From NCBI GenBank assembly GCA_009602725.1, contig WELB01000080.1, forward strand, positions 471,524 through 499,052: a stretch of DNA of 27,529 nt. Reading direction: 5' to 3'. Origin of the DNA: Spirogloea muscicola (Eukaryota > Streptophyta > Zygnematophyceae > Spirogloeales > Spirogloeaceae). Shown piece after piece: positions 3,510-27,529 of the stretch; the stretch's first letter is position 1, and the number at the start of each line of letters is the position of its first letter. The position numbers and the translations under genes are program-made. The notes under the pieces are model-generated. The model searched no databases and was not told the DNA's origin. It saw only the letters and a program-made list of their open reading frames with translations.

Positions 3510-5753
3510 ATGGAGTTCGTGAGCCCCGAGGGCCTGCGCCTGGACGGCCGCCGGCCCCGCGAGCTCCGCCAGCTCCGCTGCGAAGCCGGCGTCCTGCCCC
3601 ACGCCGACGGGTGCGCCTCCACCACCGCCGCTGCNGCCGCCACCGCCGCCGCCACCGCAGCCGCCGCTGCCGCGGCCGCCGCCCCAAACCCAAATCCTAA
3701 CCCCTCACCTAAATCCCAAACCCCGGCTGCCTCACGGGCTCGTCCCATTCTCCGCCGCAGCTCGGCGTCGTTCGAGATGGGCAACACCAAGGTCGTGGCT
3801 GCCGTCTTCGGGCCCCACGAGGTACGGGGCGCCCACCGCCTGTGGCTGCTGCTCCGCGGCCTCCTCTGCCGTTCGGTCAGCGCTCGCTGCTGACGGCACC
3901 AGCGCTAGCGGCGGCGGCGCGACGTGCTGCTGACCCGTGCTTACTGGGCTAGTCAGTGGGTAATGTACGTCGTCAGATGTGGTTGCCGTTGTACTTGGCC
4001 ACTTTGGCCTTCCATTATCTCACGCAAGTTCCTTTCTCCTGGCAGGTCACCAACCGCAGCCAAAGCCTGCACGACCGCGCGCTTGTGAGAGCTCGAAACC
4101 CCAAAACCCACAAGTTGGAGCTTACAAGCCAAACAGAACCCTTTCCCAAGTAGACTCTGCTGAGTCTCAGAAAGCCTGGATGCTGAGCCGTTTCGTGCAG
4201 CCTCGCGAGCTGGCGCCCCCGAACCGCCTGCGGTAGTAGCGCTGCAAATGGCGATCGGATCTGCTTGCCAGCATCGGCCACTTGTTCCAGTCGGTGGTGG
4301 CCCGCCTGACTCCGCCAGCCTGCAGGTCAAGTGCGAGTACAGCATGGCGGTGTTCAGCACTGGCGAGCGGCGGCGGCGGCCCAAGGGCGACAGGTGAGGT
4401 TGCTAGCTTGCCTCGTCGTTGCTCCGGCCTGCTCCGTAATGCTCAGACCATCAACTGTATTCCCAGTGCGACCCTAAACCCTAAACCCGAAACCCTAAGC
4501 CCTTGGTATTGTTGCTACTTCAGGCGGTCCACGGAAATCTCGCTGGTGATCGGCCAGACCATTGAGTCAGCCATCTTGGGCACCCTCCTCCCGCAGACTC
4601 AGGCATGTGAGTCAGCCATTGCACCACTTGCAGACAAGTCCAATGAGACAATGGATTGGTGCAACTGTGCAGCAGCTTCGACAGGCTGTAGATCCCTGAT
4701 TAAGTTGCTCTAGCCGCTTGCGCAGATCGACATCTTCGTGCAAGTCATCCAAGCGGATGGAGGTAATTAGTTGTTCGGGTGGATGATGCGCCCCACGGTG
4801 ACGATCTGCCAAGAGCGGCTGGGGGCACACACAAACTTGGCCAAAAACACTTGGATGGGCTGTGGAGCCCGCAGGAACGCGGTGCGCGGCGCTCAACGCG
4901 GCCTCCCTGGCCATCGCCGATGCTGGGATCCCCATGCGTGACATGGTCGCCGCTTGCGCCGCTGGTTACCTTGATGGCACGCCACTTCTGGGTGAGCCAT
5001 GCGCTCATCCCCCAGCTCTTTGCTTTGTTCGTCTCAAACGCTGATAGCAGGTGCAGTGGAAAGGCAGGTGATGGCATCTGCCTTTTTGTGGCTTGCCATC
5101 TGCAGATCTGAATTATCTGGAGGATGCCGGAGGTGGGCCCGACTTGACAGTCGGGCTGCATCCGAGCTCGTCAAACATCCTGCTACTCCAGGTTCGTGCA
5201 CGTGGTATTGACGGCCTAAATTGTTGATGCATGTGGTCAATAACGGCCAGAGCCGATGATCACCGTCCTGTCTTTGCTTCGCCCTTCAAAGGTCCCCTGA
5301 GTCTTGGCCAGGGTAAACGGCAGCACTATTTCAAGGTCCATATATCTGCGCCCTGCATGACTCCAGAAAGTAAAAGTGATGGGCAACTTGTATGCAGATG
5401 GACTCAAAGCTGGCCTCGGACCTCTTTGAGAAGGTGCTGGAGCTTGCAATTCTGGGTTGCAAAGCCGTCGCCGCCCACATGCGCGAGGTAGGAACTTTGA
5501 GAGTGCGACAATGGTAGACCCAGTGGCTGCCATTGGCAGCCTTGCAAGATTTAGGCACAGCGACGCTGTTTGCACAAGGCTTTTACACAACCAAGTTGTG
5601 TAATAATCACACATACACTCTCACTATGTGGTCTTGGACTTGTAGGAACATCAGACCCAAGAACTTGACAAAATAGTATTCTGTCGTGATCTGCAGGCTA
5701 TGTTGGAACGTACGCAGCAGCTGGCAGCTGTGCGGGGCTCCCTCCGCTTATAA
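3510..5753 (+). CDS. RRP41: Exosome complex subunit RRP41 (EXOSC4-like)
   Basis: RNase PH-fold subunit of the RNA exosome ring, acting in 3'-5' RNA processing and decay in nucleus and cytoplasm. Ten exons: 3510-3610, 3761-3821, 4046-4084, 4326-4393, 4524-4602, 4726-4762, 4875-4991, 5106-5191, 5398-5487, 5697-5753. They sum to exactly 735 nt, i.e. 244 aa plus TAA, matching the 245-246 aa of human and yeast RRP41. The start [16 protein letters not shown] is the family's canonical N-terminus. Further blocks in order: [111 protein letters not shown]. All exon phases agree. Intron 5 is GC-AG. Introns 1, 3 and 4 carry C-rich telomere-like stretches, intron 1 contains the window's only N (3635), and intron 2 contains a repeat shared with the retrotransposon region. 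No gap or stop is seen; the gene looks intact. Confidence 0.96.
3691..3726 (+). repeat. Degenerate CCCTAAA-like tract in RRP41 intron 1
   Basis: C-rich stretch of imperfect CCCTAAA/CCAAACC units on the sense strand, about 35-70 nt before the intron's 3' splice site at 3760. It directly follows a GCC/GCN triplet tract containing the unresolved base. Confidence 0.55.
4471..4502 (+). repeat. Interstitial telomere-like repeat in RRP41 intron 4
   Basis: About four CCCTAAA-type heptamers, two of them perfect, on the sense strand. They lie 20-50 nt upstream of the 3' splice site (AG at 4522-4523) of the intron spanning 4394-4523. Confidence 0.85.
4603..4725 (+). other. GC-AG intron 5 of RRP41
   Basis: The exon ends PQTQ with CAG followed by GCATGT, and the next exon begins IDIF after GCAG, reproducing the family's continuous ...QIDI segment. 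A good-looking GTGAGT donor 5 nt further on would shift the frame, and no acceptor rescues it. Confidence 0.8.
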
Positions 5754-7530: not shown

Positions 7531-8225
7531 ATATAGCCCGACGGACTGCGAGCCCGGCCATACGGGCCCGGGTGGGACATGTGGCACCCAGTCTCTCGTT
7601 GACGACCCGTCCACGACCTGTCGACGGCTATCAACGGGCTACCACCGACAATCTACCCATCCATCGGCAACCACCGCCATACTGACGGTCCCCCGTCACT
7701 AGCAGCTGACGGTCACTACCCCCAGGCTATCGTCAGCCGTCTATCGTTCTCGTCATCACTAACGGCTAACAACGCCGTCAAGGCAGTCTACAGCGCTGCC
7801 ACCTCCCGTCGCCGTTCCAGCGCCAGCACCATGCTGTCTCGCGTGTCACGGCTCCGGGTTGCGCCGCTCTCAGCTCTATATCAAAGCCACGCTGCCCAGC
7901 TTGGTGAAACTGTCCGTCTCCAGGCATCTGTCAAGCCTTTCCTGCGGCACTGACAGTCAATTTGTTGATCAGCCGGATGAGGTGTCCAGTCTCCAGGCAT
8001 CTGTCGATACCTTACTGTGCATTGACATTCCAGCCATGTAAAATCGTTACAGGGGTGGTCATGATAGTGCCTCTCCTTCTTCCTCTCCGCATGATGTGCC
8101 AGAACGGAAAACCACACTGCTAGACACGAGACGAAAGTAAGACGCTTCCAGGAGGGGGCGAAAGGAGGAGACGGACAGCAGCATTCGGAAGACCTGCGCA
8201 AGCGACCCAGGCAGCGTTGAAGCCG
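7531..8225. other. Unassigned repeat-flanking sequence
   Basis: No gene recognised. Between about 8120 and 8225 the minus strand reads LPGSLAQVFRMLLSVSSF, a short fragment of the RLE retrotransposon C-terminus. The rest shows only short open frames and small dispersed duplications (for example GTCTCCAGGCATCTGTC near 7918 and 7990). Confidence 0.45.
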
Positions 8226-9717
8226 CGTAGCTCTTCCCCTTGCGAGTGCCATTGGAAGTGCCACTTCTCCTTGCAAGGATACATGCAGGTCCTGCCAGAG
8301 CTCCCCAGCCTTGGGGACTCTCAGTTGGCAGTGGCCTTTTTGACCAGGAGTGTGGCACAGCTGCCGTGCTACCTCCTGCGTACGGTCCCACCGTCAGTCA
8401 GCTTGGATGCTATCTATGCAGCCATTGATGTCAAGCTTCAGCAATGCCTTGCTGATCTGATTGCTCACCCACTCCTAGAGCAGTCTCCAGCAGCACTGGT
8501 GCAATGTACGCTGAACATACGCCACGGTGTGCTTGGTTGTCGCCCCTTGGTCCGCTTATGCAGACCAGCGTACCTTAGCTGCTGGGCTCAAGTGGCTTCG
8601 TCCATATCTGGACGATTCCTCCTTGAGCAACAACGTGTACTGGCGCCTCACATCAGTAACGTAGTTCAGGGGAGTCTGCCTTTCCAAGTGACTCTCAAAG
8701 CATGCCAACAGGACCTCTTCGCCGCATACCCCGCCTCTGGTGAATGAGCCTGTTGGTTTTGCTGCCTGGGCTGACGTTTCTGATGTTAAGGCTCAATCGC
8801 GGTTTTCCCGTGCTGCAGACGAGCAACCACTGGAGCATCTCCGGAGTCTCCTCCAAGGGGATGCTCGAGGCCAGGCTCGGCTCCTATCTGTTTCGTCTCT
8901 GGGAGCGTCTGAGTGGCTTCGCGCTTTGCCTTTGCATGCGGGCTTGCGGATGGAAAATGCTTTGATTTGCAATGCTATACGCCGCCGCCTTGGCTTACCA
9001 TCCCTGTGCTTGGCAGGGGTGACCCAGTGTGAATGTGGGCTTATTGAGCATGATGCATTGCTCATGGGTGACCACATGCTCAGGTGTGCGAGAGGCAGTG
9101 AGCGCACAGGCTCCCACAACCTCCTACGTGACGCCATGTATGGCATCGTCAAGGAGGCGGGATATCAAGTGGCGTTGGAGAGCACCGGGGTGATGCCCAT
9201 CCAACTCCGCAACGGGGTCCCTCGAACGAGGCGTGTCGATCTGGTTGGCGTCCTCCTGGGAGGTGGCAAGCGGCTCCTCATGGACGTCGTCCTAACCGAC
9301 AGCTTCCGGACGAAGGGCCCCATTACTTCTGAGACCGGCTATGCCGTGAAGGTGGCCGAACAGAAGAAGTTGAGCAAGTACAAGGACCACCCGGCGGGTG
9401 TTACCTTTTACCCCTGGCCATGGACATCCATGGGTGTAACGGGGTCGGTGGTCCTCGTTACTTTCGCTGCTGGCCTCTCAAGCTGACCAGCGGCGCCGGG
9501 AACAAGGTGCAGCCCTTCTCGGTGGCTCGGTGCCCGTGGGTCTTGTGTCCTGCTACCGAATGCGTCTGTCAATGTGCCTACAGCGGTCCCAGGCGATTGC
9601 ATTGCATCGCCGGGCTGGTCGCGCCCTTGCAGCAGCCTCTGGTCTGCGCAGCGGGGTTGCTCTTCCTCCCCTCAGCTCATCTGACTTCCTACTGCTGACA
9701 CGGGGGTATTTGAAAGG
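8226..9717 (+). pseudogene. RLE-type non-LTR retrotransposon, subfamily A, 5'-truncated (copy A1)
   Basis: Longest plus-strand copy of the A subfamily. It begins after the reverse-transcriptase palm (LADLIAHPLLEQSPAALVQC, LGCRPLVRLCRPAY) and is cut by a stop at 8747. It resumes in another frame from about 8740 to 9486, shifts again, and finishes near 9717 with SSSDFLLLTRGY. In the middle ORF (residues counted from 8740) a CxC (97, 99) and HxxxC (112, 116) form a zinc motif. It is followed by RRVDLV (D167) and LLMDVVLTD (D182), then KKLSKY (209-214) and, after the frameshift, a PLAMDIHG-like block. This D-x14-D then K..KY order is that of the restriction-like endonuclease of R2/NeSL-like elements. 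With at least two frameshifts it is not functional. The native TGA after LTRGY is replaced at the junction with the next fragment. Confidence 0.85.
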
Positions 9718-10890: not shown

Positions 10891-10951
10891 GAACACCGAG
10901 GCCCATATGTAGAGTGGTACCTCGTCGACGGAGTTACTCCCCAGCCAGGAC

Positions 10952-11803
10952 ATGGCGGCTCCCGAGCTCGAGTTGCTCGAGTGGAACAGCGTGACCGTGT
11001 CGCGGCGTGTTGGGGGCGTGGGGCGGGTGACGCTGCGACGGCCCGCAAGGGCAAACGCCATCGACGACGCCATGCTGCGCGAGCTGCCGCAGGCCGTCGC
11101 GCACCTGGACGCCTGCGGCGACGTGCGCGCCATCATCCTGGACGCTGCTGGGAGGAACTTCTGCAGCGGCATCGACTTGGGCAGCCTGGCCTCGCTCGGC
11201 GCCGCAGCAGCCGAGGCCGGCGGCGGCTGCCCGGGCCGCCAGCGCGAGGCGCTGCGCCGCCAGATCCTGGCCATGCAGGCCAGCGCAACGTGCTTCGAGG
11301 CCTGCCGCAAGCCGGTGGTCGCCGCCATCCAGGGCGCCTGCGTCGGCGGCGGCGTCGACCTCGTCACCGCCTGCGACCTGAGGTACTGCACCTCCGACGC
11401 GAGCTTCGCCGTCAGGGAGGTGGACCTGGGCATCACCGCGGACCTGGGCACGCTGCAGCGCCTGCCGCGGCTGATCGGCGACGGCGCGGCGCGGGAGCTG
11501 GCCCTCACGGCCAGGACCGTCGACGCCGCCGAGGCCCACCGCCTGGGCCTCGTCCACGGCGTGCATGCGAGTGCGGCGGAGCTCGCGGCGGCGGTGGAGG
11601 CCGTGGCGCAATTGCTGGCGGCCAAGTCCCCGCTGGCCATCACCGGCACCAAGGCTGTGCTGCTCCACCCCCGAGACCACAGCGTCGCCGACGGCCTCCA
11701 GTACGCCGCCACTTGGAACGCCGCCATGCTCGCATCCAGCGACCTTGACGAGATTTTGCAGGCCCGGCAGGCACGGCGACCACCGACGTTTGCCAAGCTC
11801 TGA
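10952..11803 (+). CDS. DCI1: Delta3,5-delta2,4-dienoyl-CoA isomerase (crotonase family), peroxisomal
   Basis: Isomerase that moves double bonds in 3,5-dienoyl-CoA to 2,4-dienoyl-CoA during beta-oxidation of unsaturated fatty acids. It is a 283-aa single exon, close to the family length. Crotonase landmarks: RVTLRRPARANAIDD near residue 27, the first oxyanion-hole segment NFCSGIDLGSL near 68-78, and the second in GACVGGGVDLVTACDLRY. The Asp of GGVDL, the Glu of VREVDLG and the Asp of ITADLGTLQRLP correspond to the three acidic residues known for rat dienoyl-CoA isomerase (D176, E196, D204). This favours the isomerase over plain hydratase. The C-terminus AKL is a PTS1-type peroxisomal signal. 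The start is the first ATG of the conserved frame. Neighbours are retrotransposon debris, which extends to about 60 bp upstream. Absence of introns contrasts with all other host genes in the window. Confidence 0.9.
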   Translation: MAAPELELLEWNSVTVSRRVGGVGRVTLRRPARANAIDDAMLRELPQAVAHLDACGDVRAIILDAAGRNFCSGIDLGSLASLGAAAAEAGGGCPGRQREALRRQILAMQASATCFEACRKPVVAAIQGACVGGGVDLVTACDLRYCTSDASFAVREVDLGITADLGTLQRLPRLIGDGAARELALTARTVDAAEAHRLGLVHGVHASAAELAAAVEAVAQLLAAKSPLAITGTKAVLLHPRDHSVADGLQYAATWNAAMLASSDLDEILQARQARRPPTFAKL

Positions 11804-12590: not shown

Positions 12591-13222
12591 GTGAGTGCCT
12601 TTCCTTAAGTACCGTGTGGAGTCCTCAACTGCATGATGTGCGCATGCTGTGTGACCATGTAGGACATGCTTGTCACAGCCCCGGCCCCTTCGCAAGAGCT
12701 CACTGCAGCTGCAAGTCACTCCCACTTGCGGCTGCTTACTCGGGGTCGCCAAGCTCCCATCCGCCGTAGCCTCTCGCATAGCTGTGTGGTTTTAGCGCAT
12801 TATGGCCGTTACTTTGACCTCGCCTTTCTGGGCTGGCTTTCTACTGCCTCCGCCCCCTTTGCAAGAACCGGCTCTTCTATTTCAGTTCTTTCATAGCCCT
12901 CGCCTCCTCTGAAAGAGCCCCTTTCTTTCTTTGCAAGAGCCCCTTCCGTCTTCCTGCGCCCCTCCCCTCCTCCCATCTTCCATATCCAGTCCAGGTTTCC
13001 TTCCAAGAAGCAGCTCTGCAAGTGATAAGAATACCAATAACACATGGGGGTGGCTGTGTCGTGAGGTGGCTGGCAAGGGGGAGAGAGAGCCCCCCGGGCT
13101 ACAAGAATTTGCACCCACTTGAGTACACCTGAGATATTCACCAACCAGGAACTTAAAGAGGCCAAATAGCCCCAAAAATGGTTGACAGTGAGACAGCGGT
13201 CATCATCAATGATTAATATCCT
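12591..13222. other. Intergenic, includes EEFSEC 3' flank
   Basis: No gene recognised. Around 12828-12870 a GGGCTGGCTTTCTACTGCC segment resembles a degraded retrotransposon tail. Around 12905-12955 there are short repeats of GCAAGAGCCCCTT/GAAAGAGCCCCTT. The EEFSEC 3' UTR reads leftward from 13222. Confidence 0.4.
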
Positions 13223-16200
13223 TTAAGTCTGAGCAATACGTTTTGTTGTATCATACATGTATTTCTTGAAGCTAAGCAGTAACCTACTGCCGCCAGCTGC
13301 TGTTGGATCTGCAGCAACCGGAGCCTGAATGCCTTCCTTAAAGTGCACCTATATGCATTGTCCACCACCAGTAGGTTAGAATGTCTTCAAATGAGATTTC
13401 TACAATGAGCACTCTTATGTGCGGTGCACCACTGGTGACTTTTCATACAATATCCACATATCTTGGTCAGGAAAAAGACATAGCTGTCTACCTTAAATTT
13501 GCCAGACTTGCCAAAGGAAGATTGGATCACTCCACTTTCACCTGCTTGACAACAGTCATGTCAGAGAACCAGTATAATAAGTGGGTAGTGTATCAGTAAT
13601 GAAGCAGGTCAATCAGGCAGCTTGTATAGGGTATGTATCAGAGAACCAGTATAATAAGTGGGTAACGTATCAGTAATAGAGCAGGTCAATCAGGCGGCTT
13701 GTATAGGGTATGTAACGCTGTGATCACCATTGTCTGAGGTTACACGAAGGCCGACGAAGAGAGATATGTCTGTTTCTTTCTTGAAGAGGCCCCTCCCGAT
13801 CACATTGTACCCATCAACATACTGCCCCTCCAAATCACATTTTTCCTATCAGCATCCTGGCCCATAAGCTCATCACAGGTTGTCTGACATCGCAGTTGCA
13901 GAAAAGCAACACATGTGTTTGGCAAGCAAGCATCTGACCTGCTTATCCTTCGGTTGGCTGCTTAAATAAATGCATGCCTTGAATTATAGGGTGCAACTGT
14001 GCACGTGGACAAAGTAGAATACTTACTCTGTCAATGACGCCTTCCCGAGTCTTTTCCTTATATACACGAAGCTTCTGTAGAGCACAAGTGATGAGAAGCA
14101 ATCAGATATAGCACCACCACAAACTTGTCAACACTGGATCACCATAATTAATGCCATGCATAATTATGAGCTCAACTCAGCAGCACCATCCAAGCAGCAG
14201 CGCTTGAGATGTTTGCATACCTGCATGATGGCCTTGTCGGAGGGGTCTACAAATGTCACCAGCTTGCCATGCAGAGCGAGCCTGCAAGTGCTGCTGTCTG
14301 TCCATTGTGTTCAGGAGGCCAACACCAAGTCACAACTGTAACAAATGCCTGCGCAGTGCATCATGAACCATTTACTCATGAACCCTAGAGTTACTATATG
14401 CAACAATGACCTACTGCTCGTCTTACAAGGATACGGACATCAGTGTCCAGTCTTGAGCCAATAATAAGAGCATCCGAAGGACACGTAATCTGCAAGTGAT
14501 AACATCACCCTCTTAGCATCTGACAGAAAGAATGTACCGCCTAGATCACCACAGCACTTGCAAAAGGCTCACAAAGCTCAGACAAAGCACGACCGTTCAG
14601 GTGAACGGTAGTCCACAATCGAGGGCACACTACCAAGCACTACAATCTAATGCAATCTTACATCCCTGCAAGGTGCACGCTACAACATTGTCCTGATGTA
14701 ATCAACCATCTACTACCAAGACTGGCTGGCAAGCAAGCACAATCTCACTGGTGTTTGAAATTCAAGCAGTGCAAACTGCTTGAGGGCTTCCATCGTGCAC
14801 AAATCATCACCTGAGGAAAGCTGCCGAGGTGTCATCATGCCAGCAAGAAGTGGTAGCAGCACACTGATTTAGCTAGCATCGTGGGCAGCAGAAAGGTAGC
14901 CTTATGAAGAGTCTCTGATTTTGAAGCAATTGCCATTGTCAAATTTTGCAACGTACTTGCGCAGTCTGCTGTTCTATCCTCCTCTCCAACAAGCTCTGCC
15001 TTCAAGACGTTAGGAGCAACAAAGCGAGACTGCATCAGCATCTTGGACGCACTTGCTGCACCATTGACATCCTGGATAGACACGGACAGCACCAGCTCTC
15101 TTCATTTGCTTATTCTTCAAGAATCCCAAAGCGAGGAGCTGCGACCATGCATGGGCCAGCCATGCATACTTGATGAGCATAGTCTCTGGCAAAGTCAAAC
15201 GACGCATCTGCATCACGTCAACCGAAAGCTAGTGAGGAGGAGTAGCCCTTGTGGGGATACCGTTGAATAAGAAACATAGTAGAAAGACAAGTATCAGCAT
15301 TCTCCATGAAGGGAGACAGCTTGAACCTGGCAGTTGACTGTTGGAGCACGATGCCGGAACTCTGAAGAAGGACACTTGCGCAAACACTGTGGTATGGCCA
15401 GCTGTGACTGGCATTCACACCCAGCAACAATCCACAACAATTGAGCTGCAACTTCAAGCAACTCTCCTGGAAATACTGGTCTTTCTGATGGTGCCAAGCC
15501 TGCAAGATGAAGCACTGCGGTAGAAGAGCTCACTGTGCAGCTTGCTCTTTGATGAGATGGCTCCTTTGAAGAACCGCGCTTTTTGGACCTCCGCCAGTGC
15601 TCCCTTTGCAGTGGGCACGCTTCCAGGCTCTGCCTGCAACAGGGCGTGCTCAATGCAATGATCATGGATGACGGCACTCATTTGTGGTTGGCAGGTTCTG
15701 TCACATGCAGGCTCCATGATGCTCACGGAAGGAACACAAGGAGTACTGCCAGACTGCTCAAATTCTGGCCAAATATAATGGCACCTGCACAGGAAGAGTC
15801 ATAACAGGTAAGAGTTATCTTACCGCGATCCCCCGCTCCAGCAGCTTTGCATCCAGCTGTGTCACACAGATGCCCACTCTGTCCCCCTGCGCATCGTTTG
15901 TATCTACGTACATATGCCTTGTCAGCTTCGTGCTGGCATTGATTGTCCAGATGTGCAAGTCAGCAACGCCGTTTGATAAGCTGCGGGGAAAAGAGGCTAC
16001 CTTTATGGCTGTCGTGACTGGACGATGGAACATCTGCATGCTTTTTATCTGCGACAGTCAACACACATCCAGCTTCTTCACAGGTCACAATAGAATAGCT
16101 ACTCGGCACCTCATATGTCTGCCGTCTTCATCAATGACCAGACAATTGCATTCAGGAGAGATTGATTTCCAACCCTGCGCAGAAGCTTGAGGGCTGGAAG

Positions 16201-18050
16201 CTCAATCGTCTGGTTGATGGAGGCACGGCCTCTTAGGATGGTGCCTGTCAGAACAGTCCCCTGCAGCCCGTGCATGGGACCATGAGAGTTGAGCTTTAGT
16301 ATTTGCACCTCATTTAAGTGCACAAGACCCATATCAATACAGAAAGGCCAGGACTCCTCTACGTGCATAGGGTACAGGCAAGACAGGTCCTGCCTGCAGT
16401 AATGCTCACCTGTCCACGGATGAGGAAACAATGGTCCACCGAAAAGAGAAACCGGCCTGCATCATTGCGCTCGATGTCTGCAGCAACGAATTTGAATGCC
16501 CGCAGGAACGAAGGGTCCTTTAGAGAATATCATGCGTGTTATCTCAAGGGTGTAAGGTTTAGGGTTTAACATTTAGGAATTAGGGGTTAGGGTTGTAGGG
16601 GTTAAAGGTTTAGGGCTGAGGGTTTAGGCTGGTATATAGGCACACATGATGTGTATACTTTGATAGTACTTTGAGGATATCAGTGTGCATTACCCTGCAC
16701 ACATGCAGAGAGCTCATGCACAAGGTTGTCCAGTCCTCGAGCAGGATTGCCTTCACTGGTCCTTTCAACCCCGCCAGGACAGGCCGCAACGGCCACCATG
16801 GCACATTCTGCAAACTTGGTCCCCTTGAAGGTGGCCCGCAGCCGCTTCTTCGTCTAGTGCAACGGGTGACAACAAGTAGAACTACACTGGATCAGCAACT
16901 GCCTTCATACTGTCTGACTCAACAACTAAGAACACTGGGTATACGGAATAATCACAGAGCTTTTTGGCCATTTGTGCTCACTTTCTCAATATGAGCAGCT
17001 CTTGTGGCCTCCAGAAGCATATCCTGCACACAAGAATGTCTGATAAAGGCGTAGAAGAGGCTCGTAGACGAAAATGGCAAAGGCAAGGCTATAGACTGCA
17101 TGATGACAGAACCCCTGCCTGAAAGCGACCAGTTCAGTCTCCGTGAAGCCTTTGATTGCACAGCCACGAGATTAGAGAGGAGGTGGTATCGTACGATCTT
17201 GTTGAGAACGATGACCATGTTGCGCGTCGGAGAGATCTCTCCGATCACAATGCACTGCTCGCAGGCGCAGCCGCCGTCAGCTCACAAAGCAGTGCTGCCT
17301 GCTTGACAAGCACAGTACGTGCGACAGTACGGCCACGCATCGATCGTGTTATATTCACCTCAGCCGTCTGCATCTGCACGCCCTTGGTGACGTCCACCAC
17401 CAGCATCATGACATCGATGATGTGAGCGCCTGCCAACGATGGCGCGCACGAGCACCCGCTTCTGCCGTCAGCGCTCCTCGCCGGCCGATGGAGCCGACTG
17501 GCGACGCAGCTGGAGGCGCAGGAATGCGAGGGGAATGAGCGGAGACCGCCAATGATGGTGCGGATGAGGGAGGAGTGGCCCGGGCAATCGACGAGCGTGA
17601 ACTGCAGCTGGTCGTACGGGAGGCCCGCCAGGTGCTCCGGCAGCGGCACCTGCGGCGGCGGCGGCGGGTCAATACCAAGCTTCAGAGCGGGCAGCCGCGC
17701 AGCAAGGCCGGGCTGGAGCGGCCCGTCCAGTGCCAGTGCCAGGCCTGCGGCGGTGCGGCGAGGGCTGACCGCGAAGGAGGAGAAGCCGAGGTCGAGCGTG
17801 ATGCCGCGCTCCTGGCTCTGTGGGTGCTTGTCCAGAGCCGCCGTCGACAGCGCCGTGCTCAGCGCCCGCGCTGCTCGCGCGCGCCAGCGCCGCAGCGGCG
17901 GCGCCTCAGCTCGTGGCGGCCGTGGCGGTGAAGAATGGCGCCACTGCGCCCGCGGCCTCGCGCACCGAGGCTGGTCTTGCCGCAGTCCACGTGGCCCAAA
18001 ATCCCGGCGTTGACGTTGAGCACGCGCGGCGCCGCCGCCGCCGCCGCCAT
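13223..18050 (-). CDS. EEFSEC: Selenocysteine-specific elongation factor (eEFSec/SelB)
   Basis: GTPase that delivers Sec-tRNA to UGA codons with SECIS/SBP2. Exons (minus): 18050-17966, 17870-17547, 17429-17359, 17254-17195, 17023-16982, 16853-16694, 16477-16410, 16260-16174, 16048-16001, 15886-15824, 15633-15534, 15407-15327, 15207-15170, optional 15071-14957, 14810-14749 (from 14820 if the optional exon is skipped), 14489-14435, 14297-14221, 14074-14027, 13821-13728, 13541-13492, 13348-13223. All phases join; 582 aa, or 617 with the optional exon (human 596). G1 GHVDCGKT; switch I QERGITLD; G3 DCPGHSSLIRTIIGG; G4 NKI split by an intron before D. Domain 2 has SVDHCFLIRGQGTVLTGTI and KSMQMFHRPVTTA; domain 3 has GDRVGICVTQLDAKLLERG. 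The C-terminal SelB domain has LIIGSRLDTDV, CRLALHGKL, VIGRGLFKKETDISLFVG, SFGKSGKFK and LSFKKYMYD. The start ATG is followed by an Ala run, then RVLNVNAGILGHVD as in animal orthologues. The gene seems intact, but a copia remnant occupies its upstream region. Confidence 0.95.
13561..13713. repeat. 77-bp tandem duplication in an EEFSEC intron
   Basis: Two copies with period 77 bp, both starting TCAGAGAACCAGTATAATAA and both ending with GTATAGGGTATGTA, differing at a few positions. They lie in the intron 13542-13727 of EEFSEC. Confidence 0.9.
14298..14434 (-). other. Candidate U12-type intron in EEFSEC
   Basis: The frame requires the upstream exon to end LDTDV plus one base at 14435 and the next to start at 14297 (HSSTCRLALHG). 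The intron so defined starts GTATCCTTG, matching 8 of 9 positions of the U12 donor consensus (RTATCCTTT). It ends CTCCTGAAC plus 12 nt to the AG, matching 7 of 9 positions of the U12 branch site TTCCTTAAC at the usual distance. A strong U2-like GTAAGA 8 nt downstream is out of frame with every available acceptor. Confidence 0.6.
14957..15071 (-). other. Possible extra or cassette exon of EEFSEC
   Basis: Within an otherwise unusually long 349-nt intron, a 115-nt open segment follows CTATCCAG and precedes GTACGT. It encodes 38 residues rich in Ala and acidic residues (DVNGAASAS ... VGEEDRTADCA). Its phase fits if the following exon starts at 14810, giving two introns of 98 and 146 nt, typical for this gene. 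Human eEFSec has a variable acidic insert at the same place. Confidence 0.45.
16555..16628 (-). repeat. Telomere-like repeats in EEFSEC intron
   Basis: Interspersed TTTAGGG-type heptamers (GGTTTAGGG, GGGGTTAGGG and relatives) on the plus strand, so C-rich CCCTAAA in the gene's sense direction. They sit in the intron 16478-16693, 77-150 nt upstream of the 3' splice site. Confidence 0.8.
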
Positions 18051-18144
18051 GGCCGCCGCCGCCGCCAGCGTGGCAGGCCGGCGGGCCCTGACCTGGCATT
18101 CCAGGGCCGCAGGAATATATGTCAGTGCCATGAAGATTAGGGCA

Positions 18145-19517
18145 CTTGCAAATCACTTCTCCTTTTCCAACAGCTGGCTGCACACTGTCATCACCCGGAT
18201 GAATGTTGAAATCCGGAACGGATTGATAGTTATGGAACCAGTCTCGCCTGTAGGTGAGATACTGAGACGCTCCGCTGTCAATCTGCCAGCTATCACAATT
18301 TGACCTGTCAGACCGTCTAGACAGATGTGCCTCTCCCTCAGCATGGCTGCCTCTGCCTCTCCTGCTATTGCCATCAAATTTCAGAGCCTTCTTCTTGGGA
18401 CAGTCGTTGATCACATGTCCAGGCTCACGGCAGTAGAAGCGAGTTCTAGGATACATGGGATTCCTGTTCCACCCTGCAAACTGATCTTCACTCAGAGGAC
18501 TACTACCACCAGTCCCGCTCCGAAGACTGCGAGCAACAGTTTGCTGATGAAGCCTCGATTGATTCAAGTGATGTCGAAGATCTTGCTCAGAGTGGCGTCT
18601 TGCCAGCAGTGCTACCTGTGAATTCGGCAGAGAGCCTACCAGAGAACCTGTCAGCGAACCTGTGTTCAAAGAGCCTGTCAGAGGTCCTATTGAATATCCT
18701 GTCAGAGACCCTGTCAGATGTCGGTGTTGCTCCTCCAATGCTCGCTCCTTATGAAGAAGTCGAGCCAGCACAGATTCCACAGTCAGGTTGTGTCGGCGCT
18801 GACCATCTGCAATGTATCTCTATCAGTATCATACGCAGGCGGGAGGCCCATAAGTATGGCCAGAACTAGGAAGCGGACTGGAACCTCCTCGCCAATGTCA
18901 TGCAGCTGAAGGGCCAGTACTTTTACTCTGTTTACAAATGCTTGGATGGACTCATCCTCCTCCTTTCTGCACTCGCGCAAGCGTATTCTGAGGTAGTAAG
19001 CCCTGTCAGTTCCGCGGTTCTCAAACTTGTCCTTGAGGTACTCCCAGATGCCACTAGCCAGGGACAGGTTGACAACGCCTATCACCTCTTCATCATCCAG
19101 ATTTGCGGCAAGAGTTGCTGAGGCTATGACATTCTCACGAGAGAAGGGCCGACAAAGCCCTCGATCAGCTGGAGGCTCTACAGCGTCCCAGACATTGTGA
19201 AACTGGAGCATCTTCTTCATCCTATATTTCCAGACTAACCAATTTGTATCTCGGCCAAGCTTGGGAGTCACAACAGGGAGCGAACCCAGAGAACCCCCGA
19301 AGGGTGGGCCCATCACCTGAAAGTATTCCTGGGCTGTGTGCTCTTGTGCCTGCTCCTGTACCTGTCCCTGTGGGTTGTACACAGCGTCTTCAGAGTCTGC
19401 ATTCCTCCAGTCGTGCTCCTCCATTGGACGTCCTTCAGGTCCAGCAGATCGCCCTCGTTGAGACGGCGGCCCAGCAGAGCGACCTCGTCGCAGCGGCTCA
19501 GATGCAGATGTGCTCAT
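18145..19517 (-). pseudogene. Ty1/copia gag-protease remnant
   Basis: LTR-retrotransposon polyprotein start. Gag from the ATG at 19517 has NWLVWKYRMKKMLQFHNVWD and IWEYLKDKFENR-type blocks of copia gag. A one-base deletion near 18785 introduces a stop, and the frame resumes with NLTVESVLARLLHKE. A zinc knuckle near 18405-18445 (FYCREPGHVINDC) has lost its first Cys to Arg. The protease shows WQIDSGASQYLT near 18270-18290. The homology stops around 18145, before integrase and reverse transcriptase, about 95 bp from the EEFSEC start codon. The element is dead: frameshifted, missing a zinc ligand and 3'-truncated. Confidence 0.85.
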
Positions 19518-19771
19518 GGCGGCAAACAGATTCAGATCTCAGACAGACAGTCAGACAGCACAGGCTCCGACCTCACCCAAGGTGGGCGACAGCCTTGGCT
19601 AGGCGCACGGGAGTACCGCGTGGCCTCAGACATAGAGTGTGATCCGACCGGTGCCCGAGGCCTCCCTTATCTCTTTCTCTCTTATCCAGGGGAGACACTC
19701 AGGGCCCAATGAGACGGGCGGGATGGTCACCCACCCCGACCCGCCGATTCAACATATTATAACATTCAACA
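19518..19771 (-). repeat. Copia 5' LTR and leader
   Basis: On the minus strand the sequence starting at 19771 reads TGTTGAATGTTATAATATG, a typical copia LTR start, and runs to the gag ATG. At 19772 subfamily A retrotransposon sequence begins abruptly, marking the insertion boundary. The LTR/leader border and primer-binding site could not be fixed. No second LTR is present, so a target-site duplication cannot be tested. Confidence 0.65.
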
Positions 19772-21290
19772 GCGAAGAGGTCCTGTTGGCATGCTTTGAG
19801 AGTCACTTGGAAAGCCAGACTCCCCTGATGTGAGGGTTTAGGGTTTACATTACTGATGTGAGGCGCCAATACATATTGTTGCTCAAGGAGGAATCGTCCA
19901 GATATGAACGAAGCCTTTTAAGCCCAGCAGCCCAGTACGCTGGTCTGCATAAGCGGACCAAGGGGCGACAACCAAGCCCACCGTGGCGTATGGGCAGCGT
20001 ACATTGCACCAGTGCTGCTGGAGACTGCTCTAGGAGTGGGTGAGCAATCAGATCAGCAAGCATTGCTGAAGCTTGACATCAATGGATGCATAGATAGCAT
20101 CCAAGCTGACCGTCGGTGGGACCGTATGCAGGAGGTAGCACGGCTGCTGTGCCACACTCCTGGTCAAAATGGCCACTGCCTACTGAGAGTCCCCAAGGCT
20201 GGGGAGCTCTGGCAGGACCTGCATGTATTCTTGGAGACGAGCAAGGACAGCACCCTCCGAGAAAGACGGGTCCCCTAGTGGCTCTCCCAAGATCCTCAAG
20301 CCGCCCTCTGGAGTCTGACAAGATGTCGGCGACGAGGGGAAGAGGGAAAGAGGGATGCCAATGGGTGACCAGGCAGAGCACTTAGCCGGATTGACCCAAG
20401 CCCGATAAGCTGGAGCTGGTGCTGAAGCGTGCCAAATGCTCGCAGCACCTCCTCTTGGGGGCCGAGGAGCGTGGTATCGTCCGCATAGCTCGTGAGGAGA
20501 ACGCCTAGGTGAGCGCTCGCAGTGTTGCGCAAAGCACGGTGATGCGCCAGAGCGGAGAGGAAACCACCCATAGGATCACCTTGGCGTGTCCCCGTCTCTG
20601 ACTGCAGAACAGCCAAAGGAGTCCCTGCCCCCCACAACAATCCAGATGGCGAGCCATACATGCAGCGGAAGTCAGGGAGGAGGGTGGGAAAGTACTGCCT
20701 TAGCTCCTCGGCAATAACCTGCCAATCCACGGAGTTGAAGGCGTTCTGTACGTCCACGCTCAAGGCCAGCCAATGTGGGTTGACATCCAGTGCCGCTCGT
20801 ACCCCGTGCACCAGGGTCTCAGCGCCAGCACGCATCCCAGCCCCAAATTGGTGGGGATGGAAGTGCGCCTGGGCATCGTCCTGGATCTGCATGATTAGGG
20901 TGCGCCCCACGAGGCGCGGCAGAACCTCCTCCATCGAGATAGAAGGCACTCCCCTGCTGTCCTTCTGCAAAGCAATGAGATTGCTTGTGCAGAGGACTGC
21001 TCCTACACGATGGGTGAGGTGTCCACGCGCAACATGTTGCGCGACCCTAAGCAGCAGATTGATCCGAGTCGTCCTCCCCATACAGCTCCTGCAAGTGCTC
21101 AAAGAGCATGGCCGATGGACCCCCGGCGACTGCCTTGCGGCTACTCACAATCGCCCGACAGAAGACAGGCGGGTCCAGGTCCACCGGTTGAGCAGGCGAG
21201 GTGTTGAGAGGTGCAACTGAAGGGCTGCCTGCCCTCCCATGGTCTAATGACCCCCGGCCCGGACTGATCAGAAACAGCGTTGTTGAGATG
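19772..21290 (-). pseudogene. RLE non-LTR retrotransposon subfamily A with reverse transcriptase (copy A2)
   Basis: Minus-strand reverse transcriptase. The N-terminal part near 21190-21050 (DLDPPVFCRAIVSSRKA, GGPSAMLFEHLQELYG) is followed by VLPRLVGRTLIMQIQDDA, then LALSVDVQNAFNSVDW (catalytic Asp of motif A), ETGTRQGDPMGGFLSALAHH and LLTSYADDTTLLGP (YADD of motif C). The C-terminal thumb section 20380-19845 matches copy A1. The zinc/endonuclease part is missing because the copy ends at the copia LTR boundary at 19771/19772. Several frame breaks make it a pseudogene. A telomere-like insertion lies at 19833-19847. Confidence 0.85.
19833..19847. repeat. Telomere-like insertion inside retrotransposon copy A2
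   Basis: AGGGTTTAGGGTTTA, two heptamers. Copy A1 (8650-8675) lacks this block; in A2 it is flanked on both sides by the 10-mer CTGATGTGAG. Confidence 0.75.
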
Positions 21291-21520: not shown

Positions 21521-22038
21521 CATCTGGCTGGCAGTTTACAGCCGATTCTTTAATATCAGCAGCCGCAATCTCAGCTCAGCCCGAACAGAAGAAGTTGAGC
21601 AAGTACAAGGACCATCCGGCGGGTGATACCTCTTACCCCCTGGCCATGGACATCCATGGGTGTTACGGGGGTCGGTGGTCCTCGTTACTTTCGCTGCTGG
21701 CCTCTCAAGCTGACCAGCGGCGCCGGGAACAAGGTGCAGCCCTTCCGGGTGGCTCGGTGCCTGTGGGTCTTGTGTCCTGCTACCGGATGCGTCTGTCCAT
21801 GTGCCTACAGCGGTCCCAGGCGATTGCTTTGCATCGCCGGGCTGGTCTGCGCCCGCCCTTGCAGCAGCCTCTGGTCTGCGCAGGGGGGTTGCTCTTCCTC
21901 CCCTCAGCTCATCTGACTTCCTACTGCTGACACGGGGGTATTGAGGGCGCCCTGTCTGCATAGCCTTTGGTTCCGTCATGAACACCTGTATGCATCTGGC
22001 TGGCAGTTTACAGCCGATTCTTTAATATCAGCAGCCGC
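21521..22038 (+). mobile_element. Subfamily A tail plus subfamily A 3' fragment (copy A3)
   Basis: A partial A tail (21521-21566, ending CAGCAGCCGC) is joined to an A coding fragment. That fragment starts EQKKLSKYKDHPAG, continues PLAMDIHGCYGGRWSSLLSL, SCYRMRLSMCLQRSQAIALHRRAG, and ends LLTRGY with TGA near 21936, followed by the full A tail to 22038. Frameshifts are present. The next element starts directly after the second tail. Confidence 0.75.
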
Positions 22039-22043
22039 TTTCC

Positions 22044-24190
22044 TGGTGCCACGGGCCGTCCCGCTCGCGCACCTCGCGCGCACGGCCGACCTCCGGACCC
22101 AAGCTCGCTTCATGGCAGAGGTACATGCGGCCTCCTTCACTACGGCGATGGGGCTCTTGCCATCGGCCGACCTCCGGGGGCGCGCGCGGTTGCTCTCGGC
22201 ATTCTCACCAGGGGCGGCAGCTTGGTTGTCTGCCCTGCCGATCCACGACGTGCTCCGAATGCTCGACGACGCCTTCCGTACGGCGGTGCACCGCCTCCTC
22301 GGCCTCCACCCACCCTGCCTCAGTGGAGTACAGCAGTGTGAGTGCTTCGACGCAGCTCAGACGCGGCATCGTCGGCAGCTCACATGCTCAGGTGCGCACG
22401 GGGCGGGGAGCGGACAGGAACACACGACCTGCTGCGGAATGCAACGTTTGGCATCTATGTCGAGGCTGGTCACACGGTGGCGCTCGAGAACACCAGCATC
22501 ATGCCTCCGACCGTTGGGGCGGATGGCCGCATCCACACCCGGCACGCCGATCTCGTCGCCAGCGCGCTCCATGGGGGCCCCGGCTCATTGCCGACGTTTT
22601 AACGACTGACTGCTTTCTTTCCAGCAGCGCTAAGCGCTCGCCGGAGGAGGCGGGCTACGCAGTCTGCCAAGCGGCGGGCGCAAAGGAATGGAAATACTCG
22701 GACCACCCAGTGGGAGACGAGTTTGTTTCACTGGCAGTCGACGCGCACGGAGCCTTTGGCACAAGATGGCTTGACTTGCTTCACCACCTTGCGCGTGCGC
22801 GGCGTGCAGCGGCCCGCCGCCTCGGCAGCAGGGTGAGCAGCCCGGCTTCAATGTCGCCGGGTCCCTCGCTCAAGTCTTCCGAATGGCGTTGACAACAGCC
22901 AGGGAATGCCCTGCCAATCCACGACGCGCTCCGAATGCCCGACGACGCCTTCCGTACGGCGGTGCACCGCCTCCTCGGCCTCCACCCACCCTGCCTCAGT
23001 GGAGTACAGCAGTGTGAGCGCGGAGAGCGCAGTTCAGACGCGGCATTGTTGGCAGCTCACATGCTCAGGTGCGCACGGGGCGTGGAACGGACAGGAACAC
23101 ACGACCTGCTGCGGAATGCAATGTTTGGCATCTTTGTCGAGGCCGGTTACACGGTGGCGCTCGAGAATACCAGCATCATGCCTCCGGCCGCTGGAGCGGA
23201 TGGCCGCATCCACACCCGGCGCGTCGATCTCGTCGCCAGCGCGCTCGGCGGGGGGCCTCAGCTCATCGCCGACGTTGTCACGACTGACTGCTTTGTTTCC
23301 AGCAGCGCCAAACGCCCGTGGGAGGTGGCGGGCTACGCAGTCGGCCAAGCGGCGGGCGCAAAGGAACGGAAATGCTCAGCCAGGCAACGCCCTGCCGATC
23401 CACGACGCGCTCCGAATGCCCGACGACGCCTTCCGTACGGCGGTGCACCGCCTCCTCGGCCTCCACCCACCCTGCCTCAGTGGAGTACAGCAGTGTGAGT
23501 GCGGAGAGCGCAGTTCAGACGCGGCATTGTTCGCAGCTCACATGCTCAGGTGTGCACGGGGCGTGGAACGGACAGGAACACACGACCTGCTGCGGAATGC
23601 AATGTTTGGCATCTTTGTCGAGGCCGGTTACACGGTGGCGCTCGAGAATACCAGCATCATGCCTCCGGCCGCTGGAGCGGATGGCCGCATCCACACCCGG
23701 CGCGTTGATCTCGTCGCCAGCGCGCTCGGCGGGGGGCCCTCGGCTCATCGCCGACGTTGTCACGACTGACTGCTTTCTTTCCAGCAGCGCCAAGCGCTCG
23801 CCGGAGGAGGCGGGCTACGTGGTCTGCCAAGCGGCGGGCGCAAAGGTACGGAAATACTCGGACCACCCGGTGGGAGACGAGTTTGTTCCACTGGCAGTCG
23901 ACGCGCACGGAGCCTTTGGCACAAGATGGCTTGACTTGCTTCACCGCCTTGCACGGCGTGCAACGGCCCGCCGCCTCCGGCAGCAGGGCGAGCAGCCCGG
24001 CTTCAATATCGCCGGGTCCCTCGCTCAAGTCTTCCGAGTGCGTTTGGCCATCTCGATGCGCGGTCCATTGCCTTCGCGGTTCACTTGCGCGCAGGCCGAG
24101 CTTTGGTGGCGGCCTCCGGCTTCCGTCAGGGCAACGTCTTTCCACTGGCTAGCTACTCAGACTTGCGTTTCCTGACTAGAGGTTACTGAG
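22044..24190 (+). pseudogene. Subfamily B RLE segment, left arm of inverted repeat, three tandem units
   Basis: Encodes pre-zinc helices, the zinc motif, the RLE core (ENTSIMPP, DLVASAL, LIADVVTTDCF, YAVCQAAGAK) and the C-terminus ending LLTRGY-like at 24190. The zinc/RLE segment occurs three times: about 22232-22890, 22909-23370 and 23390-24190. Only the first and last units reach the distal FV(P/S)LAVDAHG block, and only the last has the C-terminus. Units are in different frames with internal frameshifts. Junction fillers are at 22891-22908 and 23371-23390. Confidence 0.85.
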
Positions 24191-26432
24191 CTACAGGGCT
24201 CTTTGGCTCATGCGGTCCACGCGCGCGCTGGCCGTGCTATGGCTGCTGCTTCCGGGTCTCGGCAGAGTGCCAGGGAACGCCCAGTAACCTCTAGTCAGGA
24301 GATGCAAATCTGAGTAGCTAGCTGGCGGAAAGACGTCGCCCTGACGGAAGTCGGAGGCCGCCGCCAAAGCTCGGCCTGCGCGCAAGTGAACCGCGAAGGC
24401 AAGGGACCGCTGCATCGAGATGGCCAAACGCATTCGGAAGACTTGAGCGAGGGACCCGGCGACATTGAAGCCGGGCTGCTCGCCCTGCTGCCCGAGGTGG
24501 CAGGCCGCTGCACGCCGCGCAAGGAGGTGAAGCAAGTCAAGCCATTTGTGCCAAAGGCTCCGTGTGCGTCGACTGCCAGTGGAACAAATTCGTCTCCCAC
24601 CGGGTGGTCCGAGTACTTCCGTTCCTTTGCGCCTGCCGCTTGGCAGACTGCGTAGCCCGCCTCCTCCGACGAGCATTTGGCGCTGCTGGAAACAAAGCAG
24701 TCAGTCGTGACAACATCGGTGACAACATCGGCAATGAGCCGAGGCCCCCCGCCGAGCGCGCTGGCGACGAGATCGGCGCGCTGGGTGTGGATACGGCCAT
24801 CCGCCCCAGCGGTCGGAGGCATGATGCTGGTATTCTCGACCGCCACCGTGTAACCGGCCTCGACAAAGATGCGAGATGCCAAACATTGCATTTCGCAGCA
24901 GGTCGTGTGTTCCTGTCCGTTCCCCGCCCCGTGCGCACCTGAGTATGTGAGCTGCCAACGATGCCGCGTCTGAACTGCGCTCTCCGCACTCACACTGCTG
25001 TACTCCATTGAGGCAAGGTGGATGGAGGCCGAGGAGGCGGTGCACCGCCGTGCGGAAGGCGTCGTCGGGCATTCGGAGCGCGTCCTCGAGCGTTGCCTGG
25101 CTGAGTATTCCCGTTCCTTTGCGCCCGCCGCTTGGCAGACTGCGTAGCCCGCCTCTTCTGACGAGCGTTTGGCGCTGCTGGAAACAAAGCAGTCAGTCGT
25201 GACAACGTCGGCAATGAGCTGAGGCCCCCGCCGAGCGCGCTGGCGACGAGATCGGCGCGCCGAGTGTGGATGCGGCCATCCGCCCCAGCGGTCGGAGGCA
25301 TGATGCTGGTATTCTCGAGCGCCACCGTGTAACCGGCCTCGACAAAGATGCCAAACATTGCATTCCGCAGCAGGTCGTGTGTTCTGTTCCTGTCCGTTCC
25401 CCGCCCCGTGCGCACCTGAGCATGTGAGCTGCCAACGATGCCGCGTCTGAACTGCGCTCTCCGCACTCACACTGCTGTACTCCACTGAGGCAGGGTGGGT
25501 GGAGGCCGAGGAGGCGGTGCACCGCCCGTACGGAAGGCGTCGTCGGGCATTCGGAGCGCGTCGTGGATCAGCAGGGCGTTCCCTGGCTGATGTCAAACGC
25601 ATTCGGAAGACTTGAGCGAGGGACCCGGCGACATTGAAGCCGGGCTGCTCGCCCTGCTGCCCAAGGCGGCGGGCCGCTGCACGCCATGCAAGGCGGTGAA
25701 GCAAGTCAAGCCATTTTGTGCCAAAGGCTCCGTGCACGTCGACTGCCGGTGGAACAAACTCGTCTCCCACCGGGTGGTCCGAGTATTTCCATTCCTTTGC
25801 GCCCGCCGCTTGGCAGACTGCGTAGCCTGCCTCCTCTGACGAGCGTTTGGCGCTGCTGGAAACAAAGCCGTCAGTCGTGACAACGTCGGTGATGAGCCGA
25901 GGGCCCCCGCCGAGCACGCTGGCGACGAGATCGGCGTGCCGGGTGTGGATGCGGCCATCTGCCCCAACAATCGGAGGCATGATGCTGGTATTCTCGAGCG
26001 CCACCGTGTAACCGGCCTCGACAAAGATGCCAAACGTTGCATTCCGCAGCAGGTTGTGTGTTCCTGTCCACTCCCCGTCACGTACGCATCTGAGCATGTG
26101 AGCTGCCAACGATGCCGCATCTGAGCTGCGCTCGCCGCACTCACACTGCTGTACTCCACTGAGGCAGGGTGGGTGGAGGCCGAGGAGGCGGTGCACCGCC
26201 GTACGGAAGGCGTCATGGAGCATTCGGAGCGCGTCGTGGATCGGCTGGGCCGACAACCAAGCTGCCGCCCCTGGTGAGGATGCCGAGAGCAACCGCGCGC
26301 GCCCCCGGAGGTCGGCCGATGGCAAGAGCCCCATGGCCGTGGTGAAGGAGGCCGCATCTACCTCTGCCATGAAGCGAGCTTGGGCCCGGAGGTCGGCCGT
26401 GCGCGCGAGGTGCGCGAACGTGACGGCCCGTA
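22044..26432. repeat. 4.4-kb inverted repeat with two 2.15-kb arms
   Basis: The left arm 22044-24190 and right arm 24282-26432 are reverse complements with modest divergence. They are separated by a 91-bp spacer (24191-24281). The inner ends are CTGACTAGAGGTTACTG and its complement; the outer ends are near GTGC(C/T)ACGGGCCGTC. Both arms contain the same three-unit internal amplification. Confidence 0.85.
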
Positions 26433-27296
26433 GCACCAGGGCGGGGTGATCTGCAAGCAGCGCATCCCGGGCTGAGCGGAGAGCCGCCTGGAAGGGCAAC
26501 GTGCCAGTCTCCACGTCCGCTGCCGCCTGCTCCAGAAGGCGATCCTCATGCCGGATGAAACGCTGGGCCACCGAAGCCGCACCCTGCGCCCAACTCCCCA
26601 GGTGTGCTGCCCGGCAGGCACGAGCCAGCGGACGGCAGCCCAGACCCCGCGGCTCACAGGCAGGGAGGCCTGGTGCACGGCAGCCGGCGTCGCCAGGAAG
26701 GCCGGGTATTGGACCAGGGCCGCTGTGCTGACGAGGATACCTGCATCGAAGGTTGCATAAGCGGCCTGCGCCGTCGGGGAGGGGGGGAGGGCCCGAGCCA
26801 GGTACAGGGACGTTGCGCAATGCTGCACGTCAGCATGGCGAGCCCTAGCTGCATGTCGCGCAGCTCAGGGCCGCCTGCTTGAGGTGCTCCTGCAGCTTGC
26901 AGCGCAGCTGCTCGTCCACGAAGGCCGGTGAGCCCAAGGGAACCCCGAGGAGTGTGAGGCCCCCCGCTGGTGTTAGACAGCCGGAGGGTAGGCGGAGGAG
27001 GGCTGGCAACCCTTGTGGGGACCAAGCGCTGCACTTCGACGTGCGGATGTCCAGGCCGATCTCCTTCAGCAGCTCCTCAAGGGTGGCAAAGGCAGCCAAG
27101 ACCTCGTCTGCTTGCCCGACTAGGGTGGTGTCGTCGGCATACGTTGGCATGAGGACCCCCGGGTGAGCGGCTGCCGTGGCCTTCAGGGCGCGGTCGTGGG
27201 CCAGTGCGTAGAAGAACCCCGCCAGCGGGTCCCCCCGACGCGTGCCCGTGGAAGACTGAAGGACCTCCACCCCTCCGGCTCCAAGCCGCCATAGAG
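24282..27296 (-). pseudogene. Subfamily B RLE retrotransposon, partial RT plus three RLE units (right arm)
   Basis: Read on the minus strand. It starts at 27296 in the reverse-transcriptase palm (TGTRRGDPLAGFFYALAHDR, MPTYADDTTLVGQ) and shifts frame near 26830. It then continues through GLGCRPLARACRAAHLGSWA and LADLRAQARFMAEVDAASF to the zinc/RLE segment in three copies (about 26248-25597, 25576-25110, 25089-24282), ending SDLHLLTRGY-like at 24290. An 841-codon open frame spans most of it but reads the middle unit partly out of frame, so it is not a real protein. Unit 3 also has a 12-bp duplication in the catalytic IADVVT segment (near 24713-24730). Confidence 0.85.
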
Positions 27297-27529
27297 AAAG
27301 CGGCTGCTGATATGAAAGAATCGGCTGTGAAATGCCAGCCAGATGCATACAGGTGTTCATGACGGAGCCAAAGGCTAGGCAGACAGGGCGCCCTCAATAC
27401 CCCCGTGTCAGCAGTAAGAAGTCAGATGAGCTGAGGGGAGGAAGAGCAACCCCGCTGCGCAAGCCAGAGGCTGCTGCAAGGGCGCGACCAGCGCGGCGGT
27501 GCAAAGCAAGCGCTTGGGAGCGCTGCAGG
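27297..27529 (-). mobile_element. Subfamily A retrotransposon 3' end (copy A4), continues past window
   Basis: The minus strand reads LQRSQALALHRRAGRALAAAS...SSSDFLLLTRGY, TGA near 27402, then the A tail ending at 27297 with CAGCAGCCGC. It is followed immediately by the 5'-truncated B element. The coding part extends beyond the right edge of the window. Confidence 0.8.

Follow-up and report, generated by a model that had tools for sequence, protein, structure and literature searches.

A probable U12-type intron in the selenocysteine-specific elongation factor gene of a likely green-lineage alga

Within the window, the whole stretch of 27,529 nucleotides, intron 16 of the gene for the selenocysteine-specific elongation factor (EEFSEC) is probably a true minor (U12-type) intron, with GT-AG ends. 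An earlier note on this DNA had proposed a U12-type intron at this place, and the proposal is supported by the donor, the branch site, the distance between the branch site and the 3′ end, and the phase. The intron lies in EEFSEC at the position given in that note, on the minus strand and in phase 1, and the note's figures for donor match, branch match and spacing were all reproduced (Table 1). We infer that the RNA is cut at this junction and that the host, most likely an alga of the green lineage, possesses a minor spliceosome.

Table 1. Positions of the main features in the window. A slash marks an exon/intron junction.
Feature	Position	Strand	Description
6-4 photolyase gene	about 122-2866	+	truncated at the N-terminus by the window start; 11 introns, one GC-AG (AAG/GCACGC)
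RRP41-type exosome subunit gene	about 3510-5753	+	frame complete, with 9 introns including one GC-AG (CAG/GCATGT)
Enoyl-CoA hydratase/isomerase match	10913-11800	+	intronless open frame
EEFSEC	13223-18050	-	21 exons, 20 introns, complete 617-aa frame
EEFSEC exon 17	14221-14297	-	rest of H codon, SSTCRLALHGKLVTFVDPSDKAIMQ
EEFSEC intron 16	14298-14434	-	137 nt, phase 1, candidate U12-type GT-AG intron
Intron 16 3′ splice site AG	14298-14299	-	GGACAG/ACA
Intron 16 candidate U12 branch site	14309-14317	-	CTCCTGAAC; branch A at 14310, followed by 12 nt of intron
Rival in-frame U2-like donor	14405-14410	-	TAG/GTCATT; 24 nt downstream of the GTATCCTT donor, adds 8 residues
U2-like GTAAGACG	14419-14426	-	8 nt downstream of the donor; outside the 13 frame-keeping pairs
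Intron 16 5′ splice site	14427-14434	-	GTATCCTT; exact RTATCCTT match
EEFSEC exon 16	14435-14489	-	ITCPSDALIIGSRLDTDV and first base of H codon
Copia-type gag	18786-19538	-	Pfam match
RVT_1 reverse transcriptase fragments	20299-21144 and 26848-27393	-	Pfam matches

The exons of EEFSEC were rebuilt by eye from the sequence and its three-frame translations and then joined by script, with both start and stop codon present. In a phmmer search against PDB sequences, human eEFSec was the top match of the product (535 bits); the two proteins (human: PDB 5izk/7zjw) are colinear over residues 7-584 and have the GTPase, third and fourth domains in common. Three Pfam models scored above their cut-offs, namely GTP_EFTU (89 bits), euk_SelB_III (108.6 bits) and eEFSec_4th (106.4 bits), and the product thereby has the domain combination by which EEFSEC membership was judged: an EF-Tu GTPase domain with domain III of eukaryotic SelB and domain IV of eEFSec. 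In comparison with animal and algal EEFSEC, the second-domain model GTP_EFTU_D2 falls just under its cut-off (27.8 against 30.3). The gene is densely interrupted, with 20 introns in 1854 nt. EEFSEC scans of viral contigs and genome contigs returned no relative, and no second eukaryotic EEFSEC gene came to light.

Several further features were observed around these genes. An open frame with a CCHC-like motif (17248-18819) comes after the Copia-type gag frame, runs stop-free past EEFSEC exon 1 in a different frame, and then shares the reading frame of exons 2 and 3. A retroelement remnant thus lies directly upstream of EEFSEC. In the open frames from about 22000 to 26800, one protein stretch recurs, as judged by eye, in several divergent versions. 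The intronless enoyl-CoA hydratase/isomerase frame lies amid intron-dense genes and ends in AKL, which we take to be a possible peroxisomal signal. No known RNA family reached the Rfam gathering score in the window, and no tRNA was found in it by ARAGORN.

Intron 16 was evaluated within a comparison set of 40 introns from three genes (20 from EEFSEC, 11 from the 6-4 photolyase gene and 9 from the exosome RRP41 gene), all of whose junctions were placed by homology and frame. The set comprises 38 GT-AG and two GC-AG introns, with a mean length of 146 nt. The donor of photolyase intron 3 was revised by homology to Arabidopsis from TTC/GTATTT to GAT/GTGCGC, because the latter removes extra residues that are missing in Arabidopsis.

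The intron interrupts the third domain of eEFSec and has the borders TCC/GTATCCTTG...CTCCTGAAC-ACAATGGACAG/ACA. The joined exons 16 and 17 read LDTDV-H-SSTCRLALHG, compared with LDADI-H-TNTCRLAFHG in the human protein. Left unspliced, the frame runs into a TAG after 14 intron codons, so that splicing would be needed to obtain the C-terminal domain IV. A search for GT/GC-AG and AT-AC pairs near the intron ends yielded, over the span searched, 13 pairs that preserve the frame and introduce no stop, among which the junction of Table 1 gave the best local score against human eEFSec (117), together with 112.8 bits for the euk_SelB_III profile. An AT-AC pair 2 nt away, whose sole effect on the protein is to change H to R, reached 109 and 109.5 bits, respectively. 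This reading, CGT/ATCCTTGT...GGACAGAC/AGC, was dropped since ATCCTTGT misfits the AT-AC consensus in that register. GTAAGACG was likewise dropped as a U2 donor, being absent from the 13 pairs in the span searched. The earlier note had described the donor and acceptor as forced. They are indeed the best of the 13 pairs, but the AT-AC pair and a pair using the TAG/GTCATT donor also keep the frame; the junction is thus strongly favoured by homology and frame, not strictly forced.

A donor and a branch motif found together are unspecific by themselves, and the case for a U12-type intron rests on the donor at the boundary that homology favours. GTATCCTT conforms to RTATCCTT, the strict U12 5′ rule of a 2010 survey (PMC2846911), and the donor agrees with the U12 consensus at 8 of 9 positions. 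The observation that no other of about 40 introns has this donor also held, as RTATCCTT was absent from the remaining 39. When donors were scored as log-odds of U12 type over local type, intron 16 obtained +11.5, the next intron +1.4 and the other 38 negative values; this scoring used approximate U12 donor and branch matrices, with photolyase intron 3 unrevised. ATCCTT at +3 to +8 has a chance probability of about 1.1e-4 per intron, or 0.004 over 40 introns, an estimate that takes its composition from the other 37 GT donors, treats positions as independent and concerns a single intron chosen after looking. With photolyase intron 3 revised, intron 16 is the only one of the 40 that has neither -1G nor +5G (two such introns result if that revision is not made). 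Its match to U1 is 3/9, a lowest value that it shares with EEFSEC intron 2. No other intron of the 40 has, at a distance of up to 25 nt, a GT whose U1 score is higher by 2 or more. In terms of U1 duplex energy, two donors, EEF4 (-0.9) and PHR3 (-0.4), are weaker than its own (-1.5). In the whole window, RTATCCTT was observed three times against 0.5 expected. Neither of the other two sites lies at any junction of the gene models: the one at 8275-8282 (-) lies opposite an open frame of the plus strand (8124-8744), and the one at 13216-13223 (+) overlaps, on the opposite strand, the final base of the EEFSEC stop codon.

The candidate branch site gives weaker support than the donor. By plain count, CTCCTGAAC matches TTCCTTRAY at 7 of 9 positions, level with EEFSEC intron 19, while by the weighted matrix it ranks first of the 40 (+9.2, next +4.8), a score found in 0.003 to 0.006 of Markov-simulated tails. 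The distance from the branch A to the intron end, AG included, is 12 nt, inside the optimum of 11-13 nt given in PMC3584512. Of the 20 nt that precede the last 3, 45% are pyrimidines, which is non-discriminating, as seven of the 40 introns are lower and five more are equal. Minor introns are described as avoiding phase 0 (PMC10639083); phase 1 is a weak discriminator here, common to 8 of the 20 EEFSEC introns with intron 16 counted.

Two U2-type readings have to be weighed against this. If the junction is right, the intron could still be of the common U2 type, with a weak donor that looks like the U12 consensus through coincidence, which we consider unlikely. Local donors are degenerate, with +5G in only 29 of the 40, and neither the moderate branch match, equalled elsewhere on plain count, nor the pyrimidine content speaks against such an intron. 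Furthermore, GT/AT...AG pairs carrying both motifs, taken free of gene context, occurred in 12 of 60 windows simulated with a Markov model, and the real window has one further such place, where the plus-strand RTATCCTT at 13216 pairs with five AGs having a 7/9 branch site; U12 introns are also reported absent in Chlamydomonas (PMC2846911). However, the very low number of such donors expected in 40 introns and the joint lack of -1G and +5G, unique in the set, argue against coincidence, and this reading leaves the better U1 sites nearby unexplained. It is less probable still that the true donor is TAG/GTCATT at 14410, in a U2-type intron, with GTATCCTT exonic. This donor keeps the open frame and has a U1 match of 6/9, typical of the set, but it adds eight residues (RILVRRAV) and places D for H, so that the histidine common to human eEFSec is lost. 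The local score then drops from 117 to 91 and the euk_SelB_III profile from 112.8 to 98.0 bits, and the presence of RTATCCTT at the homology boundary becomes a coincidence.

With the U12-type reading preferred, a splicing pathway can be proposed along the usual lines of the minor spliceosome. U11 would recognise GTATCCTT, and U12 would pair with CTCCTGAAC, roughly 12 nt upstream of the 3′ end. U4atac/U6atac together with U5 would then take over, and the minor spliceosome would join V/H in the third domain of eEFSec.

The identity of the host determines how surprising such an intron is. Against solved structures, the photolyase of the window scored 565 bits with Arabidopsis 6-4 photolyase, 511 with that of Chlamydomonas and 427 with that of Drosophila. 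This one neighbouring gene supports the description of the DNA as probably green-algal in the earlier note, but the host may also belong to another algal group, since the names listed for the structure set seem to include no haptophyte, cryptophyte or dinoflagellate. In a test with four sequences, the photolyase grouped with Arabidopsis against Chlamydomonas and Drosophila (AU 0.992 versus 0.008 for each alternative, with an IQ-TREE warning of too few replicates for AU; KH 0.975 versus 0.025); as one gene with four sequences, this tree is weak for including or excluding a chlorophyte host. The window also holds five matches to CCCTAAAC repeats, compared with 0.32 expected, in units at 4472-4486 (+) in RRP41 intron 4, at 16557-16615 (-) in EEFSEC intron 6 and at 19836-19843 (-). 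CCCTAAAC is the plant-type telomere unit.

The intron may be U12-type in a host that is a streptophyte alga, or that belongs to some other lineage in which a minor spliceosome is known, and its distribution would then be unsurprising. We regard this as a serious possibility that stops somewhat short of probable; it concerns the host only and overlaps with the U12-type reading of intron 16. The grouping of the photolyase with Arabidopsis rather than Chlamydomonas favours it, as do the reports that the whole Sec machinery including eEFSec is kept in streptophyte algae (PMC6627142) and that minor introns occur in Klebsormidium (110) and Chara (166) (PMC10639083). On the other hand, the four-sequence gene tree is weak evidence, and the introns of the window are short and dense, nearer to those of Coccomyxa (240 nt on average, with 7.0 per gene; PMC3446292) than to those of Mesostigma (mean intron of 1142 nt, 4.81 exons per gene; PMC6947507), a pattern that looks more like that of chlorophytes. 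The joint alternative, that the host is a chlorophyte or other non-streptophyte green alga and has retained a working minor spliceosome, is held only tentatively, as plausible without being likely; this grading is a judgement, not a calculation.

The contrast with chlorophytes drawn in the earlier note should be read accordingly. In the 2010 survey (PMC2846911), green algae are among the groups without U12 splicing, and for Chlamydomonas no U12 introns are predicted, next to 25,053 U2 GT-AG, 532 GC-AG and 7 other AT-AC introns. The absence in Chlamydomonas is thus in print, but a chlorophyte host is unproven and the photolyase sides with Arabidopsis; the contrast is further weakened because eEFSec as well as minor introns have been reported from streptophyte algae (PMC6627142, PMC10639083). 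Among the matches listed from the open-licence literature, none described minor introns in a chlorophyte, and EEFSEC and a minor intron together gave no match in the open-licence literature searched. Should the host be a chlorophyte with a working minor spliceosome, minor splicing would not have disappeared in a single event at the root of Chlorophyta, and its loss would be later or repeated within the group; such a lineage could show how minor introns get lost or converted, and its selenocysteine pathway would depend on minor splicing. If the host is a streptophyte alga, the intron would be one more in a known set. With either host, the gene provides a specific junction that can be checked, in a factor on which selenoprotein synthesis depends.

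Comparison with known systems places intron 16 as one more probable case of the known U12-type class, as judged from its motifs and position. A 2023 survey counts 110 minor introns in Klebsormidium nitens, 166 in Chara braunii and 77 in the glaucophyte Cyanophora (PMC10639083). The minor introns of Klebsormidium nitens and Chara braunii likewise belong to the green lineage and are a minority among U2-type introns; according to that survey they had been confirmed through comparative genomics, whereas intron 16 is a candidate from one sequence. Compared with the U12 branch consensus TTCCTTRAY, CTCCTGAAC differs at positions 1 and 6, with a G where T is usual. Intron 16 resembles U12-type GT-AG introns in its RTATCCTT donor, in the branch-like CTCCTGAAC at 12 nt and in its phase 1; it also seems to lack a distinct polypyrimidine tract, a property that is non-discriminating in this set.
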